Assembly: GCA_018902385.1 (NCBI GenBank)
Contig: JABSSW010000018.1
Coordinates: forward strand, 310,001-374,000
Origin: Physcia stellaris
Lineage: Eukaryota > Ascomycota > Lecanoromycetes > Caliciales > Physciaceae
Reading direction: 5' to 3'
Length of the DNA: 64,000 nucleotides
Part shown: positions 35,279 through 56,518 of the stretch, piece after piece
How positions within the stretch are numbered: the stretch's first letter is position 1
How the letters are laid out: each line of letters starts with the position of its first letter
Position numbers and translations under genes: made by a program
The notes under the pieces: generated by a model
Databases searched by the model: none
What the model was told of the DNA's origin: nothing
Seen by the model: only the letters and a program-made list of their open reading frames with translations

Positions 35279-36709
35279 ATGGCCTTCTCGCGACTACCCA
35301 CGGAGCTTCTCGACATGGTCCTCCGTCATCTATCTAAGCCAGAGCTGAAGGTTGCACGCCAAACATGCAAATCACTTAACAAAAGTGTCGTCCCTCTACT
35401 CTTTGACACCGTTTATGTTGCAGCAAACCGCCTCGATATGGAGAAAGCGGCTCTTTTGTGTTCGAGCTTCGGCCCTTTCGTTCATCACATGGTATACGGC
35501 TCGCTCTCCTGGTATGGCCTACCATTCAACCTGTTCCTCGAGGAAAACTACGAGTACTTCAAAGGGGATGGTTCGAAAACTCCATCCGAAAACAATAACA
35601 ATATTGAGCTAATCTACAAGAGCCTCCCGCAACCTAGGCAGCTCGATCTTCATATGTTATGGACACAGGTCTGCTACCTCGCCGATGAATCAGAGGGTTT
35701 TATGAAGAGCGGAGATCTCCAGTCTCAGCTCTGCCAGCTGTTGCGAGTATTGCGCAAGCTCGACACAGTTACCATCGATGATCATGATCACATAGATGAT
35801 GATTGTTGCTGTTACCAGATTCTGGTGGACGCTTGTAACCGTCAACGTAAGCAAATACCAAGTGCGACGGATTTTTTCTCTGCAGTGCAGTGCAAGGAAG
35901 ACCATCTCCGTCGTTCGCGAGGGTGTGGTCTGACGGGGGAATATTACAACCCGATGACGTACCTACTGGAGGCATTGGCTACTACACAAGTCTCAGTATC
36001 CAATATCTCGATAGACATCGAATATCCCCAGATAAGGTGTGCGAATGGGCTGTGTCTAGATGCGATACGTCTACCTGGAGAGAGCGTTCAACAATTGAGC
36101 AGACCACTATCCGGATTAACCGAGTTGAAACTGCTTTTTGAGGTACCATATTACTGGGTTCACCCGATCACAATTTTGCCCTGTCAAAAAACCATCTTGT
36201 CTGCTGCTGTGAATCTACGGAAATTACATCTTGAGATACTGGATGTGGATGATGCTCAAATATGGCTGCACGAGAATGCCATATTACCGAATATCTTTGA
36301 TGCTTTTTTGGGATCCTGCGCATTCCCAAGGCTTGAACGCTTTTTTCTACAGAACATTGACGGGACCGAGTCCGCTCTCTTGCAGTTTCTGCAAGGGTCA
36401 CCTAAGCTCAAAGATCTGACAATTCGTTGGTTTTATATGACATCAGGGAATTGGGCACAGCTACTCAAGGAATTGCGGAACTCCTTGATGTTAGAGACAG
36501 TCGAGATCGGAAATTTTGAGGGAGAGCCGGGTGAGATATACTCTGAGTATCTTGAACCGTGGTCGAATAGCTTTTACAGGGACTGGGCTTCCGTGGTAAC
36601 GAGGTTCTTCCTGAATGATGGTCCAAACCCCTTCGATAAGAGCACCTGGGTGGAAAATAGAGGTGACGACAAGGGGTACTACCGTTACTGTCCTGTAAAA
36701 AGCCAATAA
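35279..36709 (+). CDS. F-box protein
   Basis: Single-exon gene of 476 residues. The N terminus is a clear F-box (FSRLPTELLDMVLRHLSKPE, then LKVARQTCKSLNKSVVPLLF, residues about 3-45), expected to bind Skp1 in an SCF ubiquitin ligase. The remainder has weak leucine-rich, LRR-like features (LTELKLLFEVP, NLRKLHLEILDV, SPKLKDLTIRWF) without obvious WD40 or Kelch repeats. This is the common layout of the expanded fungal F-box families whose substrates are mostly unknown. The gene stands alone, with long intergenic stretches on both sides, and looks intact. Confidence 0.88.
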   Translation: MAFSRLPTELLDMVLRHLSKPELKVARQTCKSLNKSVVPLLFDTVYVAANRLDMEKAALLCSSFGPFVHHMVYGSLSWYGLPFNLFLEENYEYFKGDGSKTPSENNNNIELIYKSLPQPRQLDLHMLWTQVCYLADESEGFMKSGDLQSQLCQLLRVLRKLDTVTIDDHDHIDDDCCCYQILVDACNRQRKQIPSATDFFSAVQCKEDHLRRSRGCGLTGEYYNPMTYLLEALATTQVSVSNISIDIEYPQIRCANGLCLDAIRLPGESVQQLSRPLSGLTELKLLFEVPYYWVHPITILPCQKTILSAAVNLRKLHLEILDVDDAQIWLHENAILPNIFDAFLGSCAFPRLERFFLQNIDGTESALLQFLQGSPKLKDLTIRWFYMTSGNWAQLLKELRNSLMLETVEIGNFEGEPGEIYSEYLEPWSNSFYRDWASVVTRFFLNDGPNPFDKSTWVENRGDDKGYYRYCPVKSQ

Positions 36710-39700
36710 ATCCAAACGATAGGCTTTTCTTTGTCCTCATCGTGTGGTTGGCAGTCACTACAATTTCGGCGAACCTCGACATCAGCATTTTACGGCCTTC
36801 TACGGTGGAAGCAGGATTGAGAAGCAAACGGCAGAGCCGTGTAATGGCGCGGGATGGTTATCGGCGATAGTCGTGAAGAGCCATGCAATTGAGATAGGGC
36901 CACTTCTGAGAAGCCAGTTCATCATGATGACTTGAGCGCGGCAGAAGACTTGAACATACTTCGCAGTTTGCGGGCCAGCATTATGGCGTAGCACAATCAT
37001 TATCCAGTAATCTTGCTCGAGCCTTTGGCGCTTTACACTTACTCCCAAGAAACCAACAGAGTAACCAAACTTGTACCCGAGTTCGGAAACACGACGATGA
37101 CATTCAATCTTCGAATAACACCTATACTTCACGAATAAAATCGGATAATGGTGCAGTCTCATTATCAAAATCTCTCCATGCTATCTAAGCTTTATGGGTC
37201 TTTCACATTCACAAGATGGCTACTGATCACCAAGAGATTGAAATTTACAAATATTGATGTGCGTATTTGATATATTCAGCGCTTAAAGAAAAGCGAAACA
37301 TTCTTCTCCAAACTGTGGTTTTCCAAGATACTTTTGACCTCATTTCGGCATGTTTGCAACAATACCTTATTTCTTATTGCTGGCGGTTGGCGTGTGGATC
37401 ATCAAATGGCCATGTCTCACTTTCTTGTCCTGTACATCTCGTTTCTTCATCAGCCTTATCACAGCCTGGACATCGCTTCTCAGATCCTGGATATCCCATC
37501 CCTACATTCTCTGATATTATTCGACGGGCTTGGGATGGGGCATCCGTGATGATTCGATTCGAAGTACTTAAGAATGGGTAGCGTCGACCTTTCTGAGCTG
37601 CGATGGGATATTTTTCATGTGCATAGCATCAACTCTCCGTCACTTCTTCATTAGATGGCCAAGGTAGGATGGAATGATATCTCCAATAGGCTATCTCATC
37701 CGCGTCTCAGTCAAGTCCCGACGACTGCTTGTCAGGAGTATAAGTTTGATCGCTGAGCTTGGTCTCGATGACAGTGAGAGGTGTTTGCGCACTTTTCAAA
37801 GAGTTACGCAAGTCAGCGACAGCAGTGTTGAATTCATGATTCGCTGCTGCCGCAACGATCCAACCGGCATGAGTTTTGCTCAATTTCCTGACCGTCTCCT
37901 AATCCTTCCTCCCTTGATCTACTCTTGTGATCAAATCTTCTATGCGCGTTATTTTCTTCACTTGCTCCTCCAACCCTTATTTCGATCTCCAGCTCATTTA
38001 TCCTTTCGCATTGTGTAATGTATCTCAAGTCCTTTTTTGTGTCTTCATCCACCGGCATCGACACCAAGAATCTCCCCTCTGTAGATTGCATCCCGAGTTG
38101 GGGGTGCGTATCATGCCTCCGGCATGCCAAATGTTTGTACCCCCAAGGTAAGAATGGGATCCGCATAGCAGGGAGCCGACGATCTCGGCTGCTCCACACA
38201 GCCTTTTGTTTCTAACCTCGATAGGGAACAAGGATGTTTGTGGGAGCTAAGTTTTGTGAGGGTTTTGAGGCGGTAGCACTTGTTTGTGTCTGATTTATTG
38301 CTTTTGCGGATTGGGAGGATTGTGGTCTACTGTCACCGGATGTCTCCTCTAGCTTTTGAGCGACTCGCTGGTCTCTGGGCTAGATCTGCACGTTTGCGCT
38401 TCTCGCTCGCAGGTATGCGGCTTTGATTCTTGAACTGTTTCACGAAATCCATTGATCCTTGCAGTGGTTCTGCGTGAGTCGAGGTGAATTTGATCATTTG
38501 CCTGGGAATGCAGCTTTTTCATAACTGTCAACAGTGATAGCGTCTGTTGCGTTGACTGATATACCGTACATCTCGCTGCCGCCGTTGAATTGTACGTTCT
38601 CTATCTCAGCTGTTAACGAAAAATATTCGAAGTTTTTCGATGTGCTTACCTCTATGCTCACCTCTATGCTCACACCCAAAAACCCATCCAGATACTATAA
38701 CTGTCCTTGGACCGATTCCTCCCCAGCATCTCTGCCAATCTCTCTGCTTGATCTTCATGTCCTGAATCTTTCTGCCTAACATTTGCGTATTCGCTTTCAA
38801 ATGAAACAGTTGTGGGACTCAAAGAATTCCCACCGAAAAGTAACGTGTTCCCGTAGTCGAGCATCATACCCCTCCTCTTCGCTTTTCTTGCTTTTGTCCT
38901 TAATCATTCCTTCGAACAGTGATTCTGTCCGAGGAGGGCGATCCTTGGTTGGGTTGTTCACTGCTGGCAAGGCTCCCAGCACCGCGCTCCATGTGCCCTG
39001 TTCTGGCAGCGCGGGCACTTTGAAAGAACGTATCCTCCTCCGTCATCGCCATGATGGCTAGGTCTGGAGTTGTTGTTTTTGCGTCGAAGGGATTCGCCTT
39101 TGGCGCCGAAAGGTACGATTGCGAAGTTCATACTGTGACATACTTTTAGCGAGCGGTCAGATGGATGATGGTTGACTGTCTTGCTTTTGTTCTTCTCGGT
39201 TGGGTCAGCGCGAACGAGGGCTGTTTGTTACGAGAGGTTTGGTAGTTGTTTAGCCTACATCGGTTTCAGTTGCTGATTGGTAGCTGTGTTTTGTATTGAT
39301 GATAGCTCTGACGCTTGACTTGTTTGCTAGACTTGCATTTGTTTCCAGTGAGCTTCTAGCAGCTGGAAGACGAAAAGAATCAATGGCTTTGTCGCCTTGA
39401 TGTCTAGCCTGTCGCATAACAGCTTCATGGTGTCTGCTTTTATATGTGGTTTGACTTTGTGGTCGGGGCTTGGGACTGTGAGATGAGCATCAAAGAGATT
39501 TAGATGAGGTAGGTTGATCGCTTCTTTGGATGATTGTGGTTATGATGAGGACAGATTTTATTTTCGAGGACAGGATTTCCCAAGTGATATTGCAGGCAAG
39601 CTCGTCTGCTGTCATCTGTAGCTTTCTCGTCTGTAAGCTTTGTTTACAGTACTTTAGTCTGTGTGATATACTGAATCATAATCTGCTAGAATAAAGACGT

Positions 39701-42700
39701 GTATAGAGTTGTTTTCGACAACTTCGATTCTTCGATATAGGAAATCGCAAAGCTCAGAGATCGAATTCAGGAGCGAAAATACGAAGCATTCTGCAATTTC
39801 TCTCGCTCATGCTGGGATTGCTTCTTTGCGTCGTCTTCGCTCGCCCTTCAAACTCTTCGATATCGTGGACTTGAACTGTTTCGAAAAGTGCGGATCATCT
39901 CTTTTTCAAGATCCGCTTCGTGTTGATTTCATTTTCCCTTTGATCTGGATAAGAATTTGGCCTTTAGATAGCTTGAGGAATAGTTGTCGTTCATGATGAA
40001 AAGTGAGAATTCTAGCGCATTTTAGCAAGGAGTGAGCTGGTGATTTTTTGGATTCGCGCTCTTGAAAGTGCTATATTAGGGATGTTGGCTGAGAAGTAGT
40101 AAGGAAAACGAGAGACGGAAGTAGGTGGGCTTGTCCTTAGTATCATTAGGAAGTGCAAAAGTGAGTTCTTTTAAAAGCTCGAAGATGCAGGTATCACAGC
40201 TAGAGAAAGCTTGAAATTGGGATCGGAAATGGGGATGCTGTAGCAGTTTGTCTTCTTTCTATGATATAACATAATGATTATACAATATGTCCAAGTTCTT
40301 AGAGTTCTCTTTTTCAGTACAGAATGAAGAAAACAAAGAGAGATAAATTAGCAAGAATCAATTGACAGTATTGTGATGAATTGTCTGTTTGTTGACAGAT
40401 ATTATAGCTGATTCAATTGAAACACAGTCGTGCAGAAACCGTGAAAAGGGAGCTGCTGATGATTGGCTGATTGTGCCAAAATAGAAGAAGGTGGTTGCCC
40501 GACCTCGATTTCAATGTCGATCCAATGATTGAATGTAAGCTCCCCTCGTGAAATCGAATTCGTCTCCAAATATCTGATATCAGAGTTTTCTCTGTCTAGT
40601 CGGATATGACTAGATAAGCTTGCTGCTCAGCCTTTTGCTTTGGCTTTGTCGGCTTCCGCTTCCTTGTGTCTTTCGGAGATCATCCCGAAAATCAGTGTAG
40701 ATTCACTTGTGCATGGATGATTGATTCGTCGTAGTTCGAACTTGAATCCTCGTGCTTACGTTTGAGAGGTTTCTCCTGAGACGTATGGCTTTGTAGTCGT
40801 TGTTGACAAATCGATAATGACATATTGATAGACAGATGACGAGATAGGAAAAGACATAACAGCCATCCTCTACAAGAAGTTGATCTTCAAGGTTAAAAGA
40901 TCATTCTTAAGGCTCGAGCCAACGTTCGACTTTTGAAAATACCATTCCTGTATTCCTATTGGTCACGGAAAACCTATTGGGGAAGGTTTGAAATCCGAGC
41001 TTCGCGACGTAACTTTGTGCGATTGCGTTCGACGATGAATCACACGTAGTCATACGAATTTTCTTGGTTTTAAGTATATAGCATACACTGCATTGGCAAC
41101 TTTGGCGCTTGTCGACTCCAGATCGAACACAAAGCTGGTGGTACTAGTGATTATGATGTGAGCATGAGACTGGAAGGAATAAATATAACAAGGAGCAGAC
41201 TTAATTCAATCTTATTGATTCGAACTTGAATGAGTCCGTTTTTAGAATCTGCCGCGTCCAGTAGTGTCATTCCGAACTTGTTGCCTTATTGGGGGAGCCG
41301 TGGTATTCCGTATCCAAGGCTACGACACCCCCATTACCACGTCCTCGAAGATAACGACATCCACGAGCTCCTGACGCAAGGACGCCTCGCGTGCCAAGCC
41401 GCAGAGCATCAGATCTGGCGAGGTTTTACCAGAATATGATAGTACGACTTCTAAGGACAGATGATAGCATGTTCTCCTTGAAAACTGGTTCATTTGACAT
41501 TGTGCAGCTTGAAGTGGTGGTTTCGTGAGTCCGGAATGAAGCGGTGGGATGACAGAGTCAAGTTTGAACTGATGAGAAACAAGATATCTGGAAAAATAGA
41601 TTGTCGTCTTTATTTTCTCTTGGGAATCATCGCTTTTGCTGCTCCTCCTAGATCGCCATACATTTCGCAGGCAAGCGTAGGTCCGTTTTCAGTCTTTCCG
41701 GGAGTAGTCTTCCATCTTTTAGCAATTTTTTCTCTGGAGTTTGTAAATGGAATGATCGCTATAAAATTAAGGATAGACATGACTGATAACATAAACTTGT
41801 AATGTATGTAGAGCAGGATTGCCGAGACTACTCAAGGATGGTGTAGACTTTTCAACGCATTTACAACTCCTACTAATGATGCGAAACGTAATGTGATAGA
41901 AGTGATGCTATTAAGATCAGCCATGATCCAGCTTGAGCCGATGATTCCGATTAGAGTGTAGCAAGATACCAAGATGATTGATTTCATCTCGTAGTACTAG
42001 TAGCTCTGATTCGACATCGTCGATATCGTCATTGATATCCACTTTGATTCCGAAGCTAGTCAATAAAATTAAGTAAAGCGGACAATGATCGATGAATCAT
42101 AGAAATTTACTGTGATTAGCTGCCTATTGACTTATCAAAGGGTGCGAAGAGAGCAGGGAAAGAAGTCCTAGAGGAGGGCAAGAGAATGCTGTGAGAATAT
42201 CGAGAGACTTTCTAGAGATTTTGAAGAAAGACTGAGAAGGGTAGGGTGGGGTCTCCTCCTCTTCTTCCTTAGACTGTTCGTCAAAGCTGATTGCTTTTGA
42301 AGTCTTGTTCCTAATCCTGGCGACCATTAGCTGGAATTTGGAGCTGGCAAGACGTTTGGTAAATTGAATCGGCTTTTCATAGCCTTCGACTGCCCGTTCG
42401 TCAGTACCAATGCTGAGGAACAGCACAAACTTTTGAGGAATCCTTCTTTCCGGACTCCCAATTTTCACCATACATGTAAGGGTGACTTACCGATCGTGTT
42501 GAACACCTTTTGGGACTCGACAGGTGGCGGAGGGACTGGTGCATCATCCTCAGCTGTAGTGGCTGGTGACCTGAGGTACTGTGCTCGGGCTAGGTTTATA
42601 CAGTCCAATTCCTTCAGGGATAAGCAACGGATATGGCTCTTACAATTAGATATAGGATTTCATGTAATGAAGCTTGATTGACTCGAGTCTCGAAGTGTGC

Positions 42701-43897
42701 GATGATGTAGCAAGGCTAGGAATTATTCCGGTAGTTGTCCTATCAGGTTGCGGTGAAGGAATGATTCAGGAAGCAAAGAAGCAAGTATGAAGGACATAGT
42801 GGCCCTAAAAAGTCTATAATAGAAGTTGCTCTTTGTTTGTCAGAGTTTATCTTATAGTAAGGATGCAGAAACTTACGCTATGTTCGCGTGTCCCCGGCGC
42901 AAAGTACAGGAGAGAGCAGTCTGAGACCCACAGTGCTAAGGGCAGACATCTAATCACATATCTTTGCGTTCCAAGTGTGGGTGCCCATGACCTGTAATTT
43001 TGACAAAGTGAGCCTAGAACCCAGTAGAAGAAAAGACGTAGCACAGCGTAAGGTGCACTCTGTCGAGATAGATAGTGTCGTGACTTCGCGTGAGTAAGAC
43101 AAACATAACAGTCTTGTTGGCTAACTTCCGATTGCGATACGTGTTTTGAACCTAATCGCCAATTTCACCAATTGTGACGAGATGCATGCCGAGGAGCCGT
43201 AGAGAACCGAGCAAAATGAGAGAAGGTATACACGACAGAATGAAAGTACTGAAAAGATGAGACTCAGCCGTCCGAGATCAAATACTTTGATATTAAATCA
43301 TGCTATGTAACCGAAGGCTCATCAAACCATCCAAGGCATAGACGGATAGAAAACATGATGGAAAACGGGAACAAGGCAAGTCATCCGTCCGATGAAGTTG
43401 ATAATACAGCAAGTGATAATGCTGTCTGTTGCATCGAAGTCATTATATAGGAGGTAATGAAGAAGTTGCGCTGAAGTGGTATTTGCACACAAAACTTATC
43501 GCTATAAGAATATCTGTAATCCTCCGACAAACCTCTTGACAAGGCTGGATTTGCGGCGGGACGGGTCTGGCGACATCAAGGCTAGGTTTTTGATGGCGTT
43601 GCAGGACAACATCAATTCGCTGAATCACCGAATTGACCAAGATCTCAGTAACCTGATCTTCTTGAAGTACGTGTTCCACAGGACTCGAACATGGACAAAG
43701 CGGAGCAACTTTGTGCGCAGGGAGTACTACCATAACATTGGTAGACGTTGCGCGGGAATCTTTTCCAAAGAAAACAACTCTGGCGATCTGAGGAGCTAAT
43801 GTAGTTCCATACTGGATGAAATCGGATGGGATTATTGGCGCCCCTTCACTATATCTGGCGTTTTATCCAGAGCATATTCCTAAGCTAGAATTTGCTG
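36710..43897. other. 7.2-kb gene desert next to the transposon block
   Basis: I find no gene with recognisable domains or a multi-exon structure. A minus-strand stretch at 38600-39060 has a few overlapping frames of about 65-75 codons with protein-like composition (LPEQGTWSAVLGALPAV; RSKDSYSIWMGFWV) and could be a decayed gene. A GC-richer patch at 41230-41440 encodes a 69-codon frame with no known match. A plus frame at 43476-43799 (QDNINSLNHRIDQDL) is also unassigned. The sequence does not show the strong CpT/CpC depletion seen right of about 44010. Confidence 0.4.
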
Positions 43898-44049
43898 AAT
43901 CGGCCTGCTGGACAGGGATGCTGATGCAGGGAAGGCGCATGGATGCTCAATCGTCAGAGAAATTGCTCGGATCTTCTGCTCGTTATATTGCAGACGATCG
44001 CTCATTGTTTTTTTTTTTTTGTTTTTCATTTTTCGAAACGTTTGTTTTC
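43898..44049 (+). repeat. Split direct repeat copy A1 (left end of outer element)
   Basis: A1 aligns to A2 at 54994-55142 over about 150 bp, ending after a shared CGAAACGTTTGTTTT. The first about 110 bases of A1 keep normal base composition, whereas A2 shows C-to-T and G-to-A changes at many CpT/CpC positions. A1 therefore serves as a largely undamaged reference. Confidence 0.8.
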
Positions 44050-45077
44050 AATATATCGAAATTCTGTATATCAATTCGTTGTTGTTTTGATGTTGCAATT
44101 TCAAATATCATTTTTTCGATATTTTTATATCAAATTATTTATTTTTTGTTCATACACGCGTCGCGTATTCACGTCGTCGTCGTTATAATTAAACAAAAAA
44201 TCGTTAAACAATCAAACGTCAACAAATTAAATGTCAAATTTTTCAAAAAATCGAATGTTATTTTCGATGATTTCACGTTTCGTCAAACACGTTTTGTCGA
44301 CGTCAAAAAAATCATTTATTTGACGTCAAATTTAACATCGCGATTTCGATTTCGTCAATCGTTTTTTCGTTTTTTCGATATGAAAAAATTCGTGAAAAAC
44401 GAATTCATCAACGCAAACAAACAAAAATTTTTCGTTTTCAAACGAAAAAACGACATCGACGCGACGAAATATCAAATAAAAAAATGCAATTGAAACGAAA
44501 TCGTACGATTTCGTTGATTTTTCAAATGTTTTCGTCGTCAATCAACGATAATACGTTTTTTTTGATATCAAACGTGCATTTTATTTTTTTCGTTGTATCA
44601 CAATTTTTTTTTTTACAATTCATACGCAATTGCGATGTTCGCGAAATTTCGAACGTTTTTTATTGATTTCAATCAACAAATCGTGAAATTCGTTTTATTT
44701 GTCATTTTTTCGATTATCGATCGCAAACATTTCGAAAATATTCGAATCGACAAATTCAAAATCAAAAACATGTTAAAATTCGATGAAAATTTTGTTTCGA
44801 CGTCAAATAAAATCATTTTTGTCGACGAAACGATTCAAATAATCAAATTCAAAAAACATTTTTTTCGTTGTTTGATAATTTATTTTCAAATTGTTTTTTT
44901 TATCGCGTCGACAACGATGCGATACGATTTGTCAATAATTCAATCAACATATATGCGAAATTTGTTAACGATAATAAATTAAAAAATTTTCGTTTTCGTG
45001 TTGTTGTATCACGAAAAATTCGTGATTCGTATCATATTCATGAATCAAAACAATTTCAAATTTTGAATGAAATCGTA

Positions 45078-45301
45078 TGTTACGAACATGTCTGACAAAT
45101 AGATTTGACAAATAAATAATTGATATGATATGTGATCGAACAACGAATTATGTTTTAATTTTACGTTGAAATTAACGTGATTTGAAACTTGACGTCGCAC
45201 ATTGCTTGCAATTTCAACATTTTGTATTTATTTGTTTTTGCAAATTTATTGTTTTCGTTTAATTAATCAATAATACGTTTATTCAAGCACGATTCATGAT
45301 A
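45078..45301 (+). repeat. 5' LTR of the Ty3/gypsy element
   Basis: Starts TGTTACGAACATG and ends CATGATA. About 94% identical to the 3' LTR, with one single-base length difference. The start TG is kept; the end is TA, as expected if an original CA was mutated. The boundary is fixed by the TCGTA duplication. Confidence 0.88.
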
Positions 45302-48300
45302 TTACAATAAATTTTCAATTTTATCGTTCGTCGTGATACGCGAACGTTCAAAAATAAAATTTCAAATCGATCAAGTTTTTTTGACGAAACAAACGACGAA
45401 AATTTTTGTTGATCAAACAAACGATCAAAAGTCTTTTTAACGAATCATTTGACGAAAATCGTAAAATAACAAATCGAATTTTCACGCAAACGACGATATT
45501 TTCGACGATAAAAAAAATTGATTCGATTAATTTTTTTTTATTATTTTTCAACTTTTCATTTTCAATTATGACTCGAAATCATCACGAAACAACTTTTTCG
45601 AATTTTTTATTTCGATGAAACAACGTTTCAAAACGTTACGTTTCAATGTGAATCGTATGTTACAAAAAATCAATGACAATTTTTTCGACGAAAATTTCGT
45701 CGAACAATTCAAACGTCGTCGATTTGTTTCAACGATCGAATTCATAAAAATGAAAAATAACGAAATCATTCATTTTTTGAACATCGTCATCATCGATCAA
45801 TTGAAATGATGAATCAATCAAAAAGTCATCGATTTTTTGAAAAAATTTGATCGATTACGCATTGATCGTGACAACTATTTGAACGTTTTGATTCAATATC
45901 AGAATTTGTACAATATCGTCAACGTCGATCGTGACGAGTTGATCAATACAAACGTTGAATTCGATGAAATTCGCAAAAAAATGAATACATTGAAAATTAA
46001 TTACGAGCAAACGCGTGATCGATTTTTAATCAAACAACACGATTATATTTTTCTCAAAAAAATCATGACGTTTTGTTAGTGACGACTCGCGATCGTACAC
46101 GAAATTCTAATAACGATAATGAAAACAACGACGACGAAATCAACGTAATTAATTTTTTGAATAAAAGCAAACGACGTTCAAAAATTCATTTAAATTTTCT
46201 TAAATTCATCGACGAAATGAAATTTATTTGACGTGTTTAAAAAACAAAAATGCATGATAAAATGACGATCAACGTCGATTATTACGACACGAACATAATC
46301 GCAATTATTATTGTGATTGATTGAATTGAAAATGATGTCGATAATCACATACAATCGATACGTGATATCGACATGAATCATTTCAAAAATTGACATATGA
46401 TATTGAAATTTCTGAATTTCATTTTCGAAAATTCTGATTTCAAACGCAATATACGTATTCAATTTCGAATATTGATCATGAATATTCAAAACTTTCAGTT
46501 TTTTTATTTCATTTTTTTCGTTTTAGCAATTTAATCGATTATAACGAAATCATTAAAATCGAAAAATTGATGAACAAAATTTTTTGAAATTTGAAAAAAA
46601 CGATGAATGTATATTTACGTGAATTCATCACGTTCGATGAAATTCGAATCATTTTGCAACAAATTTACAATTGACAATCGAATTTTCGAAAAAAAAAAAT
46701 CGCGACACGTCGACAACGTTTTAAATTGTTTCAATTCAAATCAATTTTTGTCGTTTCGATTTCGATGCTCTTTACGAAATTTGTTATTTCGATTTTTTTC
46801 GTGAAATTTGTCGTTCATTTTCATTTCAACGCTGAAATCAAAATTTATGATTCGATGACAAACAAATTGATCGTCACGAGCAAATGTTTCACATGCGATG
46901 AAATCGATCACGTATGAAAAATGTGTTCGAACGTTCACAAACATCAAAAACGTCATTGACACAAAATGCAAATGTTTTACATGAACATGATCAACGAATC
47001 GAACGAATTTGATTCGAAAAATTGATAATTCACATCAAAAACGCGATTGATGAATGTTTAAAAATTTTCTTTATTCATCATGACGAATTGTTTGATTTTT
47101 TTGTCAAACGATTTTTAGTCATCAATTGTACGTTGTCATTCAACGATAATAAACATAAATTAGAAATTTTAATAAACATTGATGCAATTGATTATGCTTT
47201 CATTGATAAAGAAATTGCGCAATTTGTATGCAACATGCTGAACATGAATTTCGTATTTTTATTAAAATCGAAATTTATTATCGAATTCGACGATCGTTAA
47301 ATTTTTTCAATAATTCATGTCATTTATTTCAAATTGACAATTGATTTGCATTTCGAATTGACAGTTTTTTTTGTTTATCATCGATTTGAACAATCATTCG
47401 ATAATTTTAGAAAAATCGTGAATGAACAAACATGAAATTATTCTGAATATAATTTACGATAAATTGATTTTTAAATCGTTCAAATGTAATCATCATGACA
47501 ATATATTTATCAAAACAATGCAAATTCGACGTTTGAAAATTTCTGATTCAAATCGTCGATAAAACGTATTTAATTGACGTCGCGATGTTTTTTTATCGAA
47601 AACAGATAACGCGAAACATATTGCTGCAATAGAATTTCGATATACGATTTTATTTCGTTCGCAATTTAATTTTTCGACGTTTTATGTACAAAACGAATCA
47701 AACGTATTCGATTCAAAATGTTTCGATTGCTTTATTCATTCGAAAATCGATCAAAATGACGAATCGTTCGTCGCAAAATCAAATCATTCAAAAATTAATA
47801 TCATAACGATTACGAAAACGACATTCGTCAAAAAAAGAAATTTGAAAAAACAACGCAACAAACGTTGAAAAATCAAAAACAACAATTCGAAATCTTTTCA
47901 TTCTCGAGATTGAATTCAGACGATTCGATGAATATCGCGATAATTGATGCGATTTTTTTGTTTATTCGTCGATTTCAAAAATCGAAAACAAGAAATGCAA
48001 TGTTTTTTCATTACGATCAATCAAATCGATTTCGCATTCAAAACATTGCGAACAGATTTTGAATCGTTGAAAATTGTCGTCATGATCAAGAAAATTCTGA
48101 AACACGAACAAATCAAGTCGATTTTTGAACGTATAATGAAAAAAATATCGAAATATTTCAAATATTTGTCAGAAATATTCGATTTTCAAAAACAATTGAA
48201 TTGTCGTCGTATCGAATTTACGATCACAAAATCGAATTTTTAAACGATAACATTACATTGTTTCGAAATCGAATATATTTTCTGTTCGAATTCAAATTTC

Positions 48301-51300
48301 AAAAACTCAAAAATATTTGAAAAATAATTTTCAAAAAAATTTCATCGTATTCAATCAAATAACATACGTTTCGTTCGTTTTATTTGCAATCAAATCAAAT
48401 GATCAATTACGTTTGTGTGTGAATTATCGACGACTTAATCACATCACGAAACGCAATCGATATTTCATTTTTCTGATTGAAAAAATTCTAGCTAAAATGC
48501 AAAATTGCAAATATTTGATCAAGCTGAATATTATATCGATTTTCAACAAACTTCGAATGAGTGAAAAAAATGAAAAATTCATTACATTCGTTATTTTCAT
48601 GAAATCGTACAAATATCGAATATTATTTTTCGAATTGATCAACGAATTCGCGAGTTGACAACATTACATGAACGATTTGTTGTTCAATTTTTTGAACGAT
48701 TTTTGTCAAATTTATTTAGATGATATTTTCATTTACAGCAAATTCAAAAAAGAGCATATCGTTCACGTTCGTAAAATGTTGAAAAAATTCAAAAAAATCG
48801 AATTACAAATGAATATTGAGAAATACGAATTTTTCAAAAAAAAAAAATGACATTTTTGAACGTCATATTATCGATGAATGATTTTCGCATGAATTCGAAA
48901 AAATAAAAATCATTATCAATTGAAAACGCTTTACAAATTTGAAAAAATGCAAATTTTCGTGAATTTCGTCAATTTTTACAGACGATTCATTCGTGACTTT
49001 TCGAAAAAAGTTCGAATTTTCATTCGAATGATCAAGAAATTCGTGAATTTCGAATGAATTGTTGAAATCGAAAAAATTTTCAATTTTTTTCAAAAAAACG
49101 ATGATCGAAATTTTCATATTACGACATTACGATCGAATCAAACAAATCATTTTGAAAATTGATTTTTCTGATTACGTCAATGCGAAAATATTATTTCAAT
49201 ACGACGACGAAAAAATTTTGCATTTCGTTGTTTTTTATAATCGCAACATGATTTCAATCGAATGCAATTACGAAATTTATGACAAAAAATTGCTGATCAT
49301 TATTCGTTGTTTAAAACATTGACGTTTTGAATTTGAAAACATTGAAAAATCGATCAAAATTTTCATCGATCACAAAAATCTGAAAATTTTCATGACGTCA
49401 AAAAAACTAATTTTTCGTCAAATTCGTTGAGCAGAAATTTTTTCGAAATTCAATATTGTCATTCAATTTCAATTCGAAATTCAGAACGTTAAAACAGATA
49501 TTTTGATTCGTATGTTTGATTCACGATCAAAAAACGATATTGACGAACGACATCAATATCGAAAACAAATACTGTTTATTTCGAAACGATTCGAAATTCA
49601 CGCGATAAAAATTGACGAATTTATTTATGAACGAATTTTGTTGTCAACAGAATTGACGATGATTGCGCGATTTATCGTGAAATCATCGAACAAAATTTCA
49701 TTTCAATGAATGAAATCGATTTACGAAATTGCATTGAAAAAAACGACGTTTTGTATCGAGAAAATCGATTCTGAATGTTCGTCGATACTTTTTTATTCGT
49801 TAATTTTCTCAAAAAAATTTATGAATTTTTTGTTTCGAGACATTCAAATTTTAATCGCATGAAAAATTTTATACGTCGCGATTATTATTGATTCAACATG
49901 CGCAAAACGATTCGTCGATACGTACGTAATTGTCATGAATATCAACGCACGAAAATTTTCAAAAATCGCAAAAACGATTTATTTATTTTTTGATTATATT
50001 TTTGCAACGTTGAATCGACATATTAATGAATTTCATTATCGAATTGTTCGACGTTCACGATCATAATGTCATATGCACGATAATTGACAAATTAATAAAA
50101 AACGTTATTACGTGTTTTGTATCGTCGACGACGAAAATATCAATGTTGAAATCACGATCAAAATATTTATCAATTACGTATTTCGTACACATGAATTATT
50201 TTTTTCGATAACGTTTGATCGAAATTTTCAATTCATATCGTTCGTTTGACAAATATTTTGTCGAATTCTCGACATCAAATGTAAATTTTTCATCGTTTTT
50301 CATTCAGAAATCGATGAACAAATCGAAAAAATCAATCAAAATATCGAAAAACAATTGCGACAATATTGCAATTACATGCAAAACGATTGAAACGTTTAAT
50401 TATTTATAATCGAATTTGCAAACAACAACGCAATATTTGCAACAACAAAATTATTTTCATTTTTCATCAATAAAGATTTTCATTTTCGTATAAATTTTTC
50501 ATCAAATTTTATCTCGTATGTTACAACGAGAAAGCGACTTTTAATCGTCAAAACAAAAAATATTATCGACACGATGCAAAATATTTTCAATTACGTACGA
50601 GAACATGCAGAAATGATTCAAAAGCGTATAACAATTCAAGTCAACAAACATCGAAAAATCGTAAAATACGTCGAGAAAAATTTCGTTTTTTTCGATCGAC
50701 GAAACATCAAAACGATCAAATCGTTTGACAAATTCGATGACAAAAAATTAAATTTTTACAAAATATTACAACGTATGAGCAATTTATATCGATTCGAATT
50801 GTTTGAAATCATGCATATTTACGATGTGTTTCATTGTTAATTTTTGCGCAAAATTTTCGTGATTCGTTCGAAAATCAAATCAATAATTTTTTTGATTTTG
50901 TCATAATCAACGAAAATTTCGAATGAAAAATGAACGATATTTTGAAATTTCGATATCATTACAATCGTTTTCAATATCGTGTCAATTGATCGAGTTGATC
51001 GCATAATCGAACATGATATTATGTCGACAACGAAAAATTCGATAATGTTCGCGACATGATGAACGATTTTCATCGCATTCATTTCACGATTGCAAATTCA
51101 AAATCGTTCAAAACGTTGATTTCAATATTTCAAAACGTCGTTAACGAATCAAATTTTTCAGCGAATCGTCGTCGTTTTCGAAAAAAATCGTCATGTTGAC
51201 ATTAATCGAAATTACATTCGATTAAAATTTGAAAATTTCGAATTCAATACATTCATTTCGATTTTATTTTCGCAACATTCACGCAATTTCTAGTTTTCGT

Positions 51301-51559
51301 TATCGTTTCGATGTTATTTACAATCAAAATTTACGTCGCATAAAGAATGAATCGTGTCAAAAACATTTTCAAAAATTGTTGTCAAATTTTATCGAACTTT
51401 GAAACAATAACGAAATATCTGAAAATGAAAAATGATGATCGTGAAATTTTTGAATTTTGCAAACATTCAAATCAGTCAACAAAATTTTCAACAAAATTTT
51501 TCAATTTCGAAATAACAACGAATCGTCAAAACGACGTTCGCGAAAAAAAAAAAAAAATA

Positions 51560-51784
51560 ATGTTACGAACATGTTTGACAAATAAATTTGACAAATAAAT
51601 AATTGATATGATATGTAATCGAACAGCGAATTATGCTTTAATTTTACGTTGAAATTAACGTGATTTAAAATTTGACGTCGCACATTGTTTGCAATTTCAA
51701 CATTTTGTATTTATTTGTTTTTGCAAACTTATTGTTTTCGTTTAGTTAATCAATAATACGTTTATTCAAACACGACTCATGATA
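51560..51784 (+). repeat. 3' LTR of the Ty3/gypsy element
   Basis: Same start and end as the 5' LTR, followed at once by the second TCGTA. It is preceded by an A-rich purine tract (A-run at about 51543-51556) that fits a polypurine tract after mutation. Confidence 0.88.
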
Positions 51785-54700
51785 TCGTACGAAAAAACGC
51801 GTTGAAAATTGATAAATTTGTCATCGTCAATGTCAACGAAACGAAAAAAACAAATTATTAATTCGCAAAAAACACGTTTATCGTCGTTCGATTTTCAATT
51901 TCGAACGACGACGTTTCGTCGATTTTTCGACAAAAATTTCAACGATTTTTACAATCGTTTCAACGACGATTGTGACAATTTTCAAATCATCGAAAATTGC
52001 ATCAAATCGAATTGCAAATTCGTTTATATTTGTTTCATATGTCAACAATCAAATCACGACGAAACAACGTGTTTTATTCGTCGTCGATTTTGATTCGTGC
52101 GAAAAAAAAAAAATTCGTCGCGAATTTCGAAATCGTTTCTTTTTTCATGACATAAAAATATTTTTTTTTTTTGATATAAATTTTCGAAAACTTTTCATAT
52201 GATATTGCATCAAATGACGAGAAAAAATTGAAAATCGAAAATTCGTTGATTCATGATGATTGAAAAACAATGTTGCGTTTTCATTTCGATAAATTTTTCG
52301 TCAAAATTTTTTTGCGTATAATTCGTTTCGATGCGAAAATAAATTACGAAAATTTTTCACAATGTTTTATATCGAAAAATCACGTTTCGATCGAAAAAAT
52401 TTTTGACGTTTTTATCGTCGATATACAAAAACAATTAACGTTGAATAAATTGTTGATCGTGAAATCACAATTGAAAACAAATTCGTACATATGTTTTTCG
52501 TTGAAATTGATATCGAAAAACGATAAAAATTGAAAACGAATTTATTATTTTTCGTATTTTGCAAATTCGTCAATTAATTATTATATACGCAAAAAATATG
52601 ATGTTTTCGAATATATCGTTATAAACGAAATTATAATCGCAATAATGCGACAAAATTATCACGTTCAAATATTCAAAAAAAATTTTATTGATGTTTTCAA
52701 ACATGTATCGTTGATCGTATCGATTCGTTAAATGTTCGATTTTTATTGATTAAATGTTTATTATTTGAAATTGTTTTTATTTTTCGAATTGCGCACGACG
52801 TTTTTTTTATTCGATTTGTTCAATAAAATTTTCAATTACATATTCATCAAATTGTTTCGATGTGTTTCACAATTTATCATTATTTCGATAATTTTTTTTT
52901 CGTGTTGTCATTCGACGCAAACACGAAATTGTACAAAAAATTATGAATTCATATTTGCGAAAAATTGAATTTTCGCATCAATGCAAAAAAAAAACAATCA
53001 AATATCGTGATGTCGTTTTTGAACATCGAATTGAATTCAAATTTTATGAAAATCAAATTATTTGCTAATAAATTCGAACGCGTCAAAAAATTGATTTATG
53101 ACGTCAATAACGAATTTTTCAATTCGATTAATTATCAAAAATTCGATAAATTCGTTGATTTTTTTTTTGCGCGAAAATGATTGTGTTTGAAAAAAATTTT
53201 TTTGATTTCGTTTTACAAAATTTTCGATTCGAAAACACGATTAATACACATCAACGATGACATGCGAACGAATTTGATTTGATAAATCGAATTTTTATCG
53301 CAATAAAACGAAATCAAAATGATACGAAAATTTGAAACACGTTTCGAATGTTTGATGTGAATCGACGTTTCAAAAAAATGAAACATTGATGATTATCGAA
53401 TTCGTTATCGACGTGATTTTTTTGACGAAATATTCAATTAACGTTTCATCATTCGAAATCGCAAAAAAAAACGAAACATACAAATCAAAAAAATGCAAAT
53501 CGTTTTGCACGTCATGCGTATTTGATTCGAAAATTTCAACGATTGCGAATTTATCGTTTATTGTAACAATCAAACAATTTGCGAAAATTTACGTTCAAAC
53601 ATCATGCGAAATTTTGTCATGAAAAATTTACGCAAAATCATGATGTTGTTGATCGTTCATGACATCGAAATTCACGTCGTTTGAATCGAATTCAAAAAAA
53701 ATCGTTTTGTTGATTTGTTGTCACGAAATAAATATGATATTATTGCTAACGAATTTGAACAATTAATTTATTTGACATTTTGATTTCAAATTTTTTTCGT
53801 AATTTATATGCGATTCGAAATTCGTTCGAAAATTGATACGCAAAATGTTTTTTGTTCAAAAAAACGACGAATCACATTTAATGAAATTTGATTTTCAATA
53901 CGCGTCACAATTATGATATTGCGATAAATAATTACAAACGACATTGTTCGACGAAATTGATTGCGTTGAATTTTTAATCGATTAACGAATAAATATTACA
54001 TCATTGAATAATTTTCATGAACATAAATCGTTTGAAATTCAAAATTATCAAAACATATATCGATGCATTGAAATCTGCACATATTAATCGCGATTATTCA
54101 AATTTTTCGATTTTCAACTCGTCGTTATTGCAACGTCATATACGCGAAATAAAGAAAAAATATCAAAAAAACGATCGTCGAGAGCGTAAATTCATTACTC
54201 GTGATATTTTGTTGAAATTGTTAACAAAATTCAATATCAATATCAAATAAAACGTCACGATGCACGTTGTTTTTTGCTTGATTTTCGCAAATTTTTTTCG
54301 TGTAAAAAAATTTACGTATAAAACGAACGAACAAAACGAATTCGATTTTGTTCAATGACACGTTATTCGCTTTTTCGTTGTTTTATAAATCGATTTTTTG
54401 AAATTGATTTTATTTTTTTTTTTAAAATGAATTTTTTCGTCACGACGTTATCATTATTATTGTTGCAACGAGCGATGCGAATTGTTTTGTCAATTTTTGC
54501 GTTATTTTTTCATTAAATATTTTGCAACAACGAATACGTTATTGTTCGAAATTAAATTATACAAATTTTTCAATGCACAAATGATCACGAATGTGTTACG
54601 CAAAAAATTTTGTATCGTTGAAAAACGTGAACATTATTCAAAACATTTTTTTCGTCGAAAAATCGTTACAAAAATCAAAATTCAAAACGTTATCGAAATC

Positions 54701-54872
54701 ATGATTCAAATGTTGAATCGTTGATCGTTCAATTCGTATTTGTTATACATTGACGTCAATAAAACAATCAAATTAATTGTTTTTCGATGTTTTCAAATTT
54801 TTCGAATTCGTTGAACGCACGTCGTTTTGTTTGCAACGATTTTCGTCGCGCGACGTTGTTTTGAAATTTGAA

Positions 54873-54993
54873 AATTAATCGACGATATTATTGTTCAACA
54901 AAATTTTTGTTGTGAATGTTTTTTTGCATAAACGATGTTCGTTGATCGAATCAATCATCAAAATTTTTATACAAAAATTTTCAAAAACATTAA
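54873..54993 (+). repeat. Split direct repeat copy B1
   Basis: 121 bp, from AATTAATCGACG to AACATTAA, matching B2 at 55215-55335 at the same length with only about six differences by eye, all or nearly all transitions. It abuts A2 directly. Confidence 0.88.
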
Positions 54994-55142
54994 TTCGATT
55001 TGTTGAACAAAAATGTTGATACAAAAAAAACGCATAAAAATTCAATCGTCAAAAAAATTGTTCGAATTTTTTGTTCGTTATATTGCAAACGATCGTTCAT
55101 TGTTTTTTTTTTTGTTTTTCATTGTTTCGAAACGTTTGTTTT
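54994..55142 (+). repeat. Split direct repeat copy A2
   Basis: Homologous to A1 at the left end of the outer element. Shared anchors are CAATCGTCA, CGTTATATTGCA and CATTG-T(n)-GTTTTTCAT. It is much more mutated than A1. Confidence 0.82.
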
Positions 55143-55214
55143 TTCGTTCATTCGTTTTTGAAAAATCGTTTTATGTACATATTATTTCATAATTCGATCG
55201 CGATAAATAAAAAA

Positions 55215-55335
55215 AATTAATCGACGATGTTATTGTTCAACAAAATTTTTGTTGTGAATGTTTTTTTGCATAAACGATGTTCGCTGATCGAATCAATCAT
55301 CAAAATTTTTATACAGAAGTTTTCAGAAACATTAA
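55215..55335 (+). repeat. Split direct repeat copy B2 (right end of outer element)
   Basis: Copy of B1. Its last about 60 bases regain CpT and ApG dinucleotides, marking the right edge of the mutated block. About 70 bp of unique AT-rich sequence separate it from A2. Confidence 0.88.
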
Positions 55336-56518
55336 CGCTACTGAATAACATTTTTCGTTCATTTTTCAGTTCTGACTCGTAACGCAATTTTTCAGTTTTG
55401 AAGAATTTTGCAAACGAACATTTATTTTTCTTAATAGATTTGATCAGTTTGTTGTTGAGCTTTTCTGACAATCTGAGTTGTGTGGTAAGTCAGTAGTATG
55501 TAATAGTAAAATGATCGATTTCATTCGATCATATATCCCTGCTCATTAATTGAAAAGACTGATGGATGGAAAAGTAATATTGTTGTGAATGTTATATCAA
55601 GTAACTCTCTCTACCTCAGAAGAAAACAGCCAGTTAAACTACGTCTTCGAGAATGCTGATGTGATTCGTGAGACGCTGATGCAATTCGAAAGAATCTAAT
55701 GATGTTCAACGGTAAAATCACGAAAGCCAAGCATCATATTTTCTCCAAGCCTTGGTATCGGATAGAAATTTTTGGGACATCTTCGAGACTTGGACTGCGG
55801 AGCGTTTAATGTTTTACCTATAGCAGCATGTTCTAGTCTTGTGTATAAGTCTGAACATGCGTACCAGTGATGAAAATTATCTGTTGACAAGCACTTTCCC
55901 ATGGTCTGGTAGTAAGTAGTGCTAGTTTTGTTGAATGCACGGACAAATCTACGATTACCCGACTTGGGACTGAATCAAAAATTGATGCCATCTTCACCGA
56001 GATGCACAATTCATGGGAATCCTCGGCATCGAAAATTTTCATCTTTCCCCTCGCCCCGCGAACATCCAAAAGCTTCAACTTATTCAAAACAGATGATTCT
56101 GTTTCAAAAAATGATATTATTTACATTACATTCTTGTTATCACGGCGATCTCATTTTATGAATTTGATACATTATTGAATGTGTTGTAATTGATTGAAAA
56201 GAAACATTGGAGGAGGAATTTGAGTACACAATTTTTAAGCTCAATGTAACGTCGAGTAGCTCAATCTAGGGAAGGGTAACACCATCCATTCCACCAATCC
56301 CCGCTCTGCCATAGTTCAGTTTGTTCGCTCTGGGATGATTTGAAGCCTAACACTCTTGCTGGGGGACTTCAGCTGTGTTGGGGGGTCCCTTCAGTAATCG
56401 GCAAGAACGACAGGCACGCTTGGTGTGCGACAGGAGAGGGAACCACAAATATTCATCACTGCATGCAGGGAGAGAGGGACAACAACTCGAGCATATGAGT
56501 TACTAGAGAAAAGATCGT
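55336..56518. other. 1.2-kb intergenic region right of the transposon block
   Basis: Base composition returns to normal. The short frames at 55696-56161 have no recognisable content. The stretch 56391-56518 may hold an alternative last exon of the secreted-protein gene, as a frame there ends at 56391 with protein-like sequence (SLHAVMNICGSLSCRTPSVP). Confidence 0.4.

Follow-up and report, generated by a model that had tools for sequence, protein, structure and literature searches.

In Neurospora crassa, repeat-induced point mutation (RIP) has been described with the context preference CpA>CpT>CpG>CpC, and in T. reesei CpA and CpG are mutated about equally, followed by CpT and then by CpC, so that the CpA/TpA signature is typical of RIP and not universal (PMC5496416; this and the other papers on related systems are represented here by parts of their texts). 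Another example is the use of CpT together with CpA in Magnaporthe oryzae, Botrytis cinerea and Sclerotinia sclerotiorum, which has been tied to RID-class genes (PMC4352252), and in Anisogramma anomala, which has two rid genes (PMC10998396). In a survey published in 2025 and covering 1,239 fungal genomes, RIP-like defences have been reported to share the CpA preference (PMC12543289). AT-rich repeat compartments with sharp borders have been described in Cladonia rangiformis together with RID and DIM-2 homologues (PMC12542154), and indices built on CpA and TpA have led to RIP calls in Gyalolechia flavorubescens and Cladonia metacorallifera, which are likewise Lecanoromycetes (PMC7882544). Here we describe a different signature in a stretch of 64,000 nucleotides of Physcia stellaris (assembly GCA_018902385.1, contig JABSSW010000018.1, positions 310,001 to 374,000; hereafter the window, with positions counted from its first letter), where an AT-rich block at 44010-55310 has lost nearly every cytosine that precedes a pyrimidine (CpC and CpT, together CpY). 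Physcia stellaris is a lichen-forming ascomycete (Physciaceae, Caliciales). With a probability of about 0.8, the block is repeat DNA, mostly retrotransposon, that has been inactivated by a mutator of RIP-like kind, directed at repeats and changing C to T where a pyrimidine follows.

The original prediction, made from the letters of the window, held that in this block cytosine is kept almost exclusively where A or G follows, and guanine only where T or C precedes. A comparison of dinucleotides, as counts and observed/expected ratios, between the block and the left flank (1-36700) has confirmed this observation in a stronger form than was claimed. The block (27.1% GC) contains no CC and no GG, and CT (66 occurrences, ratio 0.11) and AG (69, 0.13) are nearly eliminated; neither CA (741, 1.27) nor CG (785, 3.79) is depleted, and TA is depleted and not enriched (600, 0.40). 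The flank is ordinary in these respects (CC 0.94, CT 1.12, CA 1.09, CG 0.85, TA 0.69), and the remainder of the window is normal in composition. CpT and CpC are, in short, far from their expected frequency in the block.

The context of the mutations has been measured against two unmutated copies of the family to which the retrotransposon of the block belongs (family A), L031 on contig C5 (52.2% GC) and L032 on contig C12 (52.8% GC). After CpY conversion in silico, these two copies match the mutated ones at 94-98% identity in alignments longer than 1.9 kb. In a set of 14 mutated copies (that of the window and 13 others, with 24-29% GC), C had become T relative to L032 at 97.7% of CpC (6283/6431), 91.1% of CpT (5228/5741), 10.6% of CpA (625/5895) and 3.8% of CpG sites (227/6048), and relative to L031 at 98.0, 90.8, 10.5 and 3.9%, respectively. 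A second retrotransposon family (family B, five mutated copies against L030) gave 97.9, 86.4, 8.7 and 4.6% in the same order. The main alignment was made in CpY-converted letters; as a control, the window copy was realigned in purine/pyrimidine letters (96.7, 87.6, 9.7 and 2.0%) and in plain letters (96.7, 87.4, 9.5 and 2.0%). The differences between L031 and L032, taken as background, amount to about 3-5% in each context and show no CpY bias; against this background CpA is raised (P 5e-7) and CpG is not (P 0.61), although both values assume that the copies are independent, an assumption that does not hold. Decay of methylated CpG has been rejected on the low CpG figure of the 14 copies. The predicted cytosine mutator, with C before a pyrimidine as its target on either strand, has thus held against unmutated copies of two families, with the refinement that CpC is more heavily mutated than CpT.

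The base on the 5' side has no clear effect, 97% of ACC, 98% of CCC, 96% of GCC and 99% of TCC being mutated. This bears on the possibility that a nucleic-acid deaminase edited retroelement complementary DNA or single-stranded DNA. Deaminases of the APOBEC/AID type read the 5' neighbour of the target base, and such an enzyme would explain C-to-T changes with a CC preference; the absent 5' effect, the mutation of both strands and the equal mutation of the outer repeat that surrounds the retrotransposon make this explanation very improbable.

The order of events can be followed in a half-mutated copy, L042 (C95:25101-28551; 36% GC, 81% identity to L032), in which 77.6% of CpC (378/487), 45.8% of CpT (195/426), 3.6% of CpA (16/439) and 2.2% of CpG sites (10/453) are mutated. 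The CpC rate is about 2.5 times the CpT rate, and the strands are unequal at CpC (127/200 vs 251/287). Since CpA and CpG are here at the level found between the two unmutated copies, CpC is the preferred target. The preference is therefore CpC>CpT>>CpA>=CpG, in which CpC is mutated first, CpT next, CpA very weakly and CpG not detectably. Differences have also been counted between the long terminal repeats (LTRs) of single elements. In the window element the two LTRs differ at 10 CpT and 2 CpA; in the 11 of 14 copies for which both LTRs were found (one was found in each of the other three), the differences comprise 118 CpT, 23 CpA, 6 CpG and 1 CpC transitions and 5 transversions, and the cytosines common to both LTRs comprise 15 CpT, 347 CpA and 204 CpG. 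CpA is accordingly not the main context, and the expectation that repeat copies differ mostly by C-to-T at CpT or CpC is borne out. When mutated copies are aligned only among themselves, CpA seems to lie near CpT (5174 vs 5396 on the plus strand, 4558 vs 5856 for the mirrored changes) because CpT is almost exhausted, an ambiguity that the unmutated references resolve. The coexistence of such copies also speaks to a technical origin, in which nanopore basecalling would have read methylated C as T. Nanopore reads were indeed used for the assembly, but they were accompanied by Illumina reads at about 30-fold coverage (PMC7513301). Moreover, a single assembly holds unmutated, half-mutated and 96-100% CpC-converted copies, these are also separated by substitutions other than C-to-T, and miscalling at such a level is not plausible, so that an artefact of this kind is the least probable of the explanations weighed here.

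Both parts of the block belong to repeat families, and the same signature is found at many places in the genome. The published genome comprises 46.57 Mb with 43.32% G+C, obtained with nanopore and Illumina reads from cultures derived from ascospores (PMC7513301, in part); the assembly analysed here comprises 43.97 Mb in 147 contigs and may be a filtered version of it. Within 1.5 kb on the flanks of the remaining 13 family A copies, 109 AT-rich windows carry 23.6 CpY per kb and 15 GC-normal windows 246.1, with CpA (119.6 vs 128.0 per kb) and CpG (106.8 vs 116.3 per kb) nearly unchanged. In a small, non-random sample of six 10-kb stretches, one from each of contigs C1-C6 out of an evenly spaced list of 60, three contain AT-rich blocks, all of them CpY-poor (0-33 per 500 bases, as compared with about 100-150 in normal DNA). 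When windows are binned by GC content, CpC and CpT collapse below 35% GC and CpA and CpG hold. Among 313 AT-rich 500-base windows, mostly from loci fetched as element copies and hence not random, CpY exceeds 70 per kb in four, and CpA does not fall below 80 per kb in any. A genome search for reverse transcriptase (RT) sequences gave 527 candidates, the best 150 of which were scored; they span at least three sequence groups, include some open copies in GC-normal DNA, L031 and L032 among them, and contain 250 TGA, 33 TAA and 3 TAG stops, with 10 matches free of stops. The dominance of TGA fits CpY mutation because the latter turns TGG into TGA, whereas CpA mutation would mainly give TAA or TAG.

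The changes, which are C-to-T transitions on both strands, are restricted to repeats. Six copies of the left end of the outer repeat (that of the window and five more) have each a different flank, and the flank is unmutated in all six (its single-copy status was not searched). In four of these six, the first stretch of the repeat itself is spared over up to about 100 bases, and the other two (L044 and L045) are partly mutated there; at the right end, a tail of roughly 25-100 bases is spared in all four copies read (loci for the two ends, besides the window: L043-L050). The mutated tract thus has its limits inside the repeat, as would be expected if homologous pairing were needed.

A search of the genome with PF00145 gave four matches corresponding to three genes, which by similarity to relatives and by known motifs are assigned to two RID-class proteins and one DIM-2 homologue, the classes for which a search had been proposed. 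The DIM-2 homologue, on contig C3, matches chain 9bap, the Neurospora DIM-2 protein (E 4e-180). The gene on contig C5 encodes a RID/Masc1-class protein (P0001) with an EQT motif, and that on contig C6 (L001, C6:790057-794028) a second RID-class protein with several exons, an EET motif and the later motifs in place, which has a homologue in Heterodermia (72% identity) and further homologues in metagenomes. For an alignment of RID proteins 32 sequences were chosen, nine of which were dropped when the domain-finding pattern missed them; the P. stellaris RID departs from its relatives at S638, A657, N672, C698, D709 and E850, and carries LIHPSG at a site that reads NYHPSG in 9 of the 22 others and is variable among the remainder. 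These residues may be taken, as leads only, for candidate recognition positions. A mechanism of the following kind would fit: repeats would be recognised through their homology during the sexual cycle, as happens in Neurospora RIP; a RID/Masc1-class C5-methyltransferase (P0001 or its paralogue on contig C6) would select C by its 3' neighbour; and the selected C would be converted to T, possibly with participation of the DIM-2 homologue. Coding sequence is broken chiefly by changes from TGG (Trp) to the stop TGA and by missense changes. Alternatively, DIM-2-type heterochromatin methylation might act at CpC and CpT in silenced repeats, with deamination of 5-methylcytosine (5mC) to T over time. 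A DIM-2 homologue is encoded, Neurospora DIM-2 prefers CpT according to part of a review (PMC13297926), and Z. tritici Dim2 promotes C-to-T changes in mitosis (PMC8016269, in part). This route is nevertheless unlikely, as CpC conversion is near-complete while CpG stays at background, the strands of the half-mutated copy are unequal at CpC, and the Dim2-dependent mutations of Z. tritici lie at CpA, CpT sites being almost without 5mC in the same part of that source.

Several observations weigh against a RIP-like mutator. The CpA preference and the TpA excess were tested and are absent. The prediction that CpA and CpG are spared stands for CpG, which is at background level, and fails in part for CpA, at which the old copies are mutated to about 10% against a background of about 4%; CpA sparing is strong, not absolute. 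In addition, the most AT-rich windows (15-20% GC, n=18) show reduced frequencies of both CpA (101 per kb) and CpG (75 per kb). Finally, L031 and L032, which share 95% identity over 3.4 kb, occur in the genome alongside diverged relatives, at least 38 in number (69-81% identity), so that either these two copies are recent, or the defence is currently weak or does not at present reach every copy. The best reading is still a RIP-like variant with inverted context, one that works like RIP without the canonical CpA signature and whose full membership of RIP is putative.

The prediction that indices built on TpA and CpA would under-call the signature proved correct. In the block, TpA/ApT is 0.40, (CpA+TpG)/(ApC+GpT) is 1.30 and the composite is -0.90; with RIPper-type thresholds (a product above 1.1, a substrate below 0.75 and a composite above 0.01), none of 21 windows in the block and none of 294 AT-rich 1-kb windows, mostly from element-copy loci, was flagged. 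A published RIP survey uses product >1.15, substrate <=0.75 and composite >0 (PMC7882544, in part). Gyalolechia flavorubescens and Cladonia metacorallifera resemble P. stellaris in having AT-rich repeat compartments; the indices find a RIP signal in both and none in P. stellaris, and because these two Lecanoromycetes are detected in this way, the CpY pattern is not class-wide (PMC7882544). The mutated DNA of C. rangiformis is mostly of 10-20% GC (PMC12542154), below the range of the 14 copies measured here. P. stellaris is like N. crassa in the conversion of C:G to T:A on both strands, the confinement to repeats and the presence of RID- and DIM-2-class genes, and unlike it in context preference and in the depletion of TpA. 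It is like the CpT-biased fungi in having CpT as a main context and Masc1/RID-class genes (two in some species), and unlike them in that CpA, which there accompanies CpT, is nearly spared and CpC comes first (PMC4352252; PMC10998396); the term CpC is absent from the texts of both papers.

Some published counts argue against an easy claim of novelty. CpT leads in alignment counts of N. crassa Tad1 (PMC2621366) and in the RIP-capable controls of PMC7882544, and it is raised as well in N. crassa rDNA (PMC5555474). Such CpT-leading counts compare mutated copies mutually, which the use of unmutated references avoids here. In the open literature, with subscription papers such as Clutterbuck 2011 outside the scope, no publication describing a CpC-first or CpY-only signature was found; the part of PMC11969663 that was searched gave no context preferences, and the term repeat-induced occurs at no place in the P. 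stellaris genome paper (PMC7513301). On balance we favour, with reserve, an inverted-target repeat defence in P. stellaris and perhaps its close relatives, exerted by a RID-class enzyme or paralogue with altered recognition, to which CpA/TpA surveys would be blind. The biological significance of this is that CpC, the least used context in Neurospora and T. reesei (PMC5496416), is mutated first. Should the mutator prove to be a RID-class enzyme, natural enzymes with opposite base preference exist, and swapping them could test how RID chooses and converts its target. Systems of this kind would be undercounted wherever a census relies on TpA/CpA indices. The CpY rule also carries a different genetic cost, as CAA, CAG and CGA are not turned into stops and TGG is.

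The block consists of one repeat inserted into another (Table 1). The outer repeat has long partial copies at other loci (86-94% identity) and a candidate 5-bp target-site duplication, CTGAA; the inner retrotransposon is bordered on either side by the five bases TCGTA and has at least 13 further long copies among the best candidates scored (91-95% identity). A mitochondrial or merely AT-rich origin of the block has been rejected in view of the LTRs, the RT match and the unmutated copies on large contigs.

Table 1. Features of the mutated block and its repeats (window positions)
Feature	Position	Strand	Remarks
CpY-mutated block	44008-55285 (both edges approximate)		nearly all C before C/T and G after A/G changed to T/A, on both strands; shift from normal to mutated over tens of bases
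Outer repeat	43900-55340 (right end about 55334-55340)	+	split in two by the inner element
Left end of outer repeat	43900-44007	+	within the repeat, unmutated in the window copy
Right end of outer repeat	55286-55340	+	within the repeat, little mutated
Inner LTR retrotransposon, 6.7 kb	45078-51784	+	inserted in the outer repeat; LTRs, RT match
LTRs of inner retrotransposon	45078-45301, 51561-51784		224 bases each
RT match of inner retrotransposon	about 48395-48856	+	

To the left of the block, the stretch 36701-44009 has 44% GC; CpC is somewhat low in it (18-38 per kb in 39001-44000), and CpT is ordinary.

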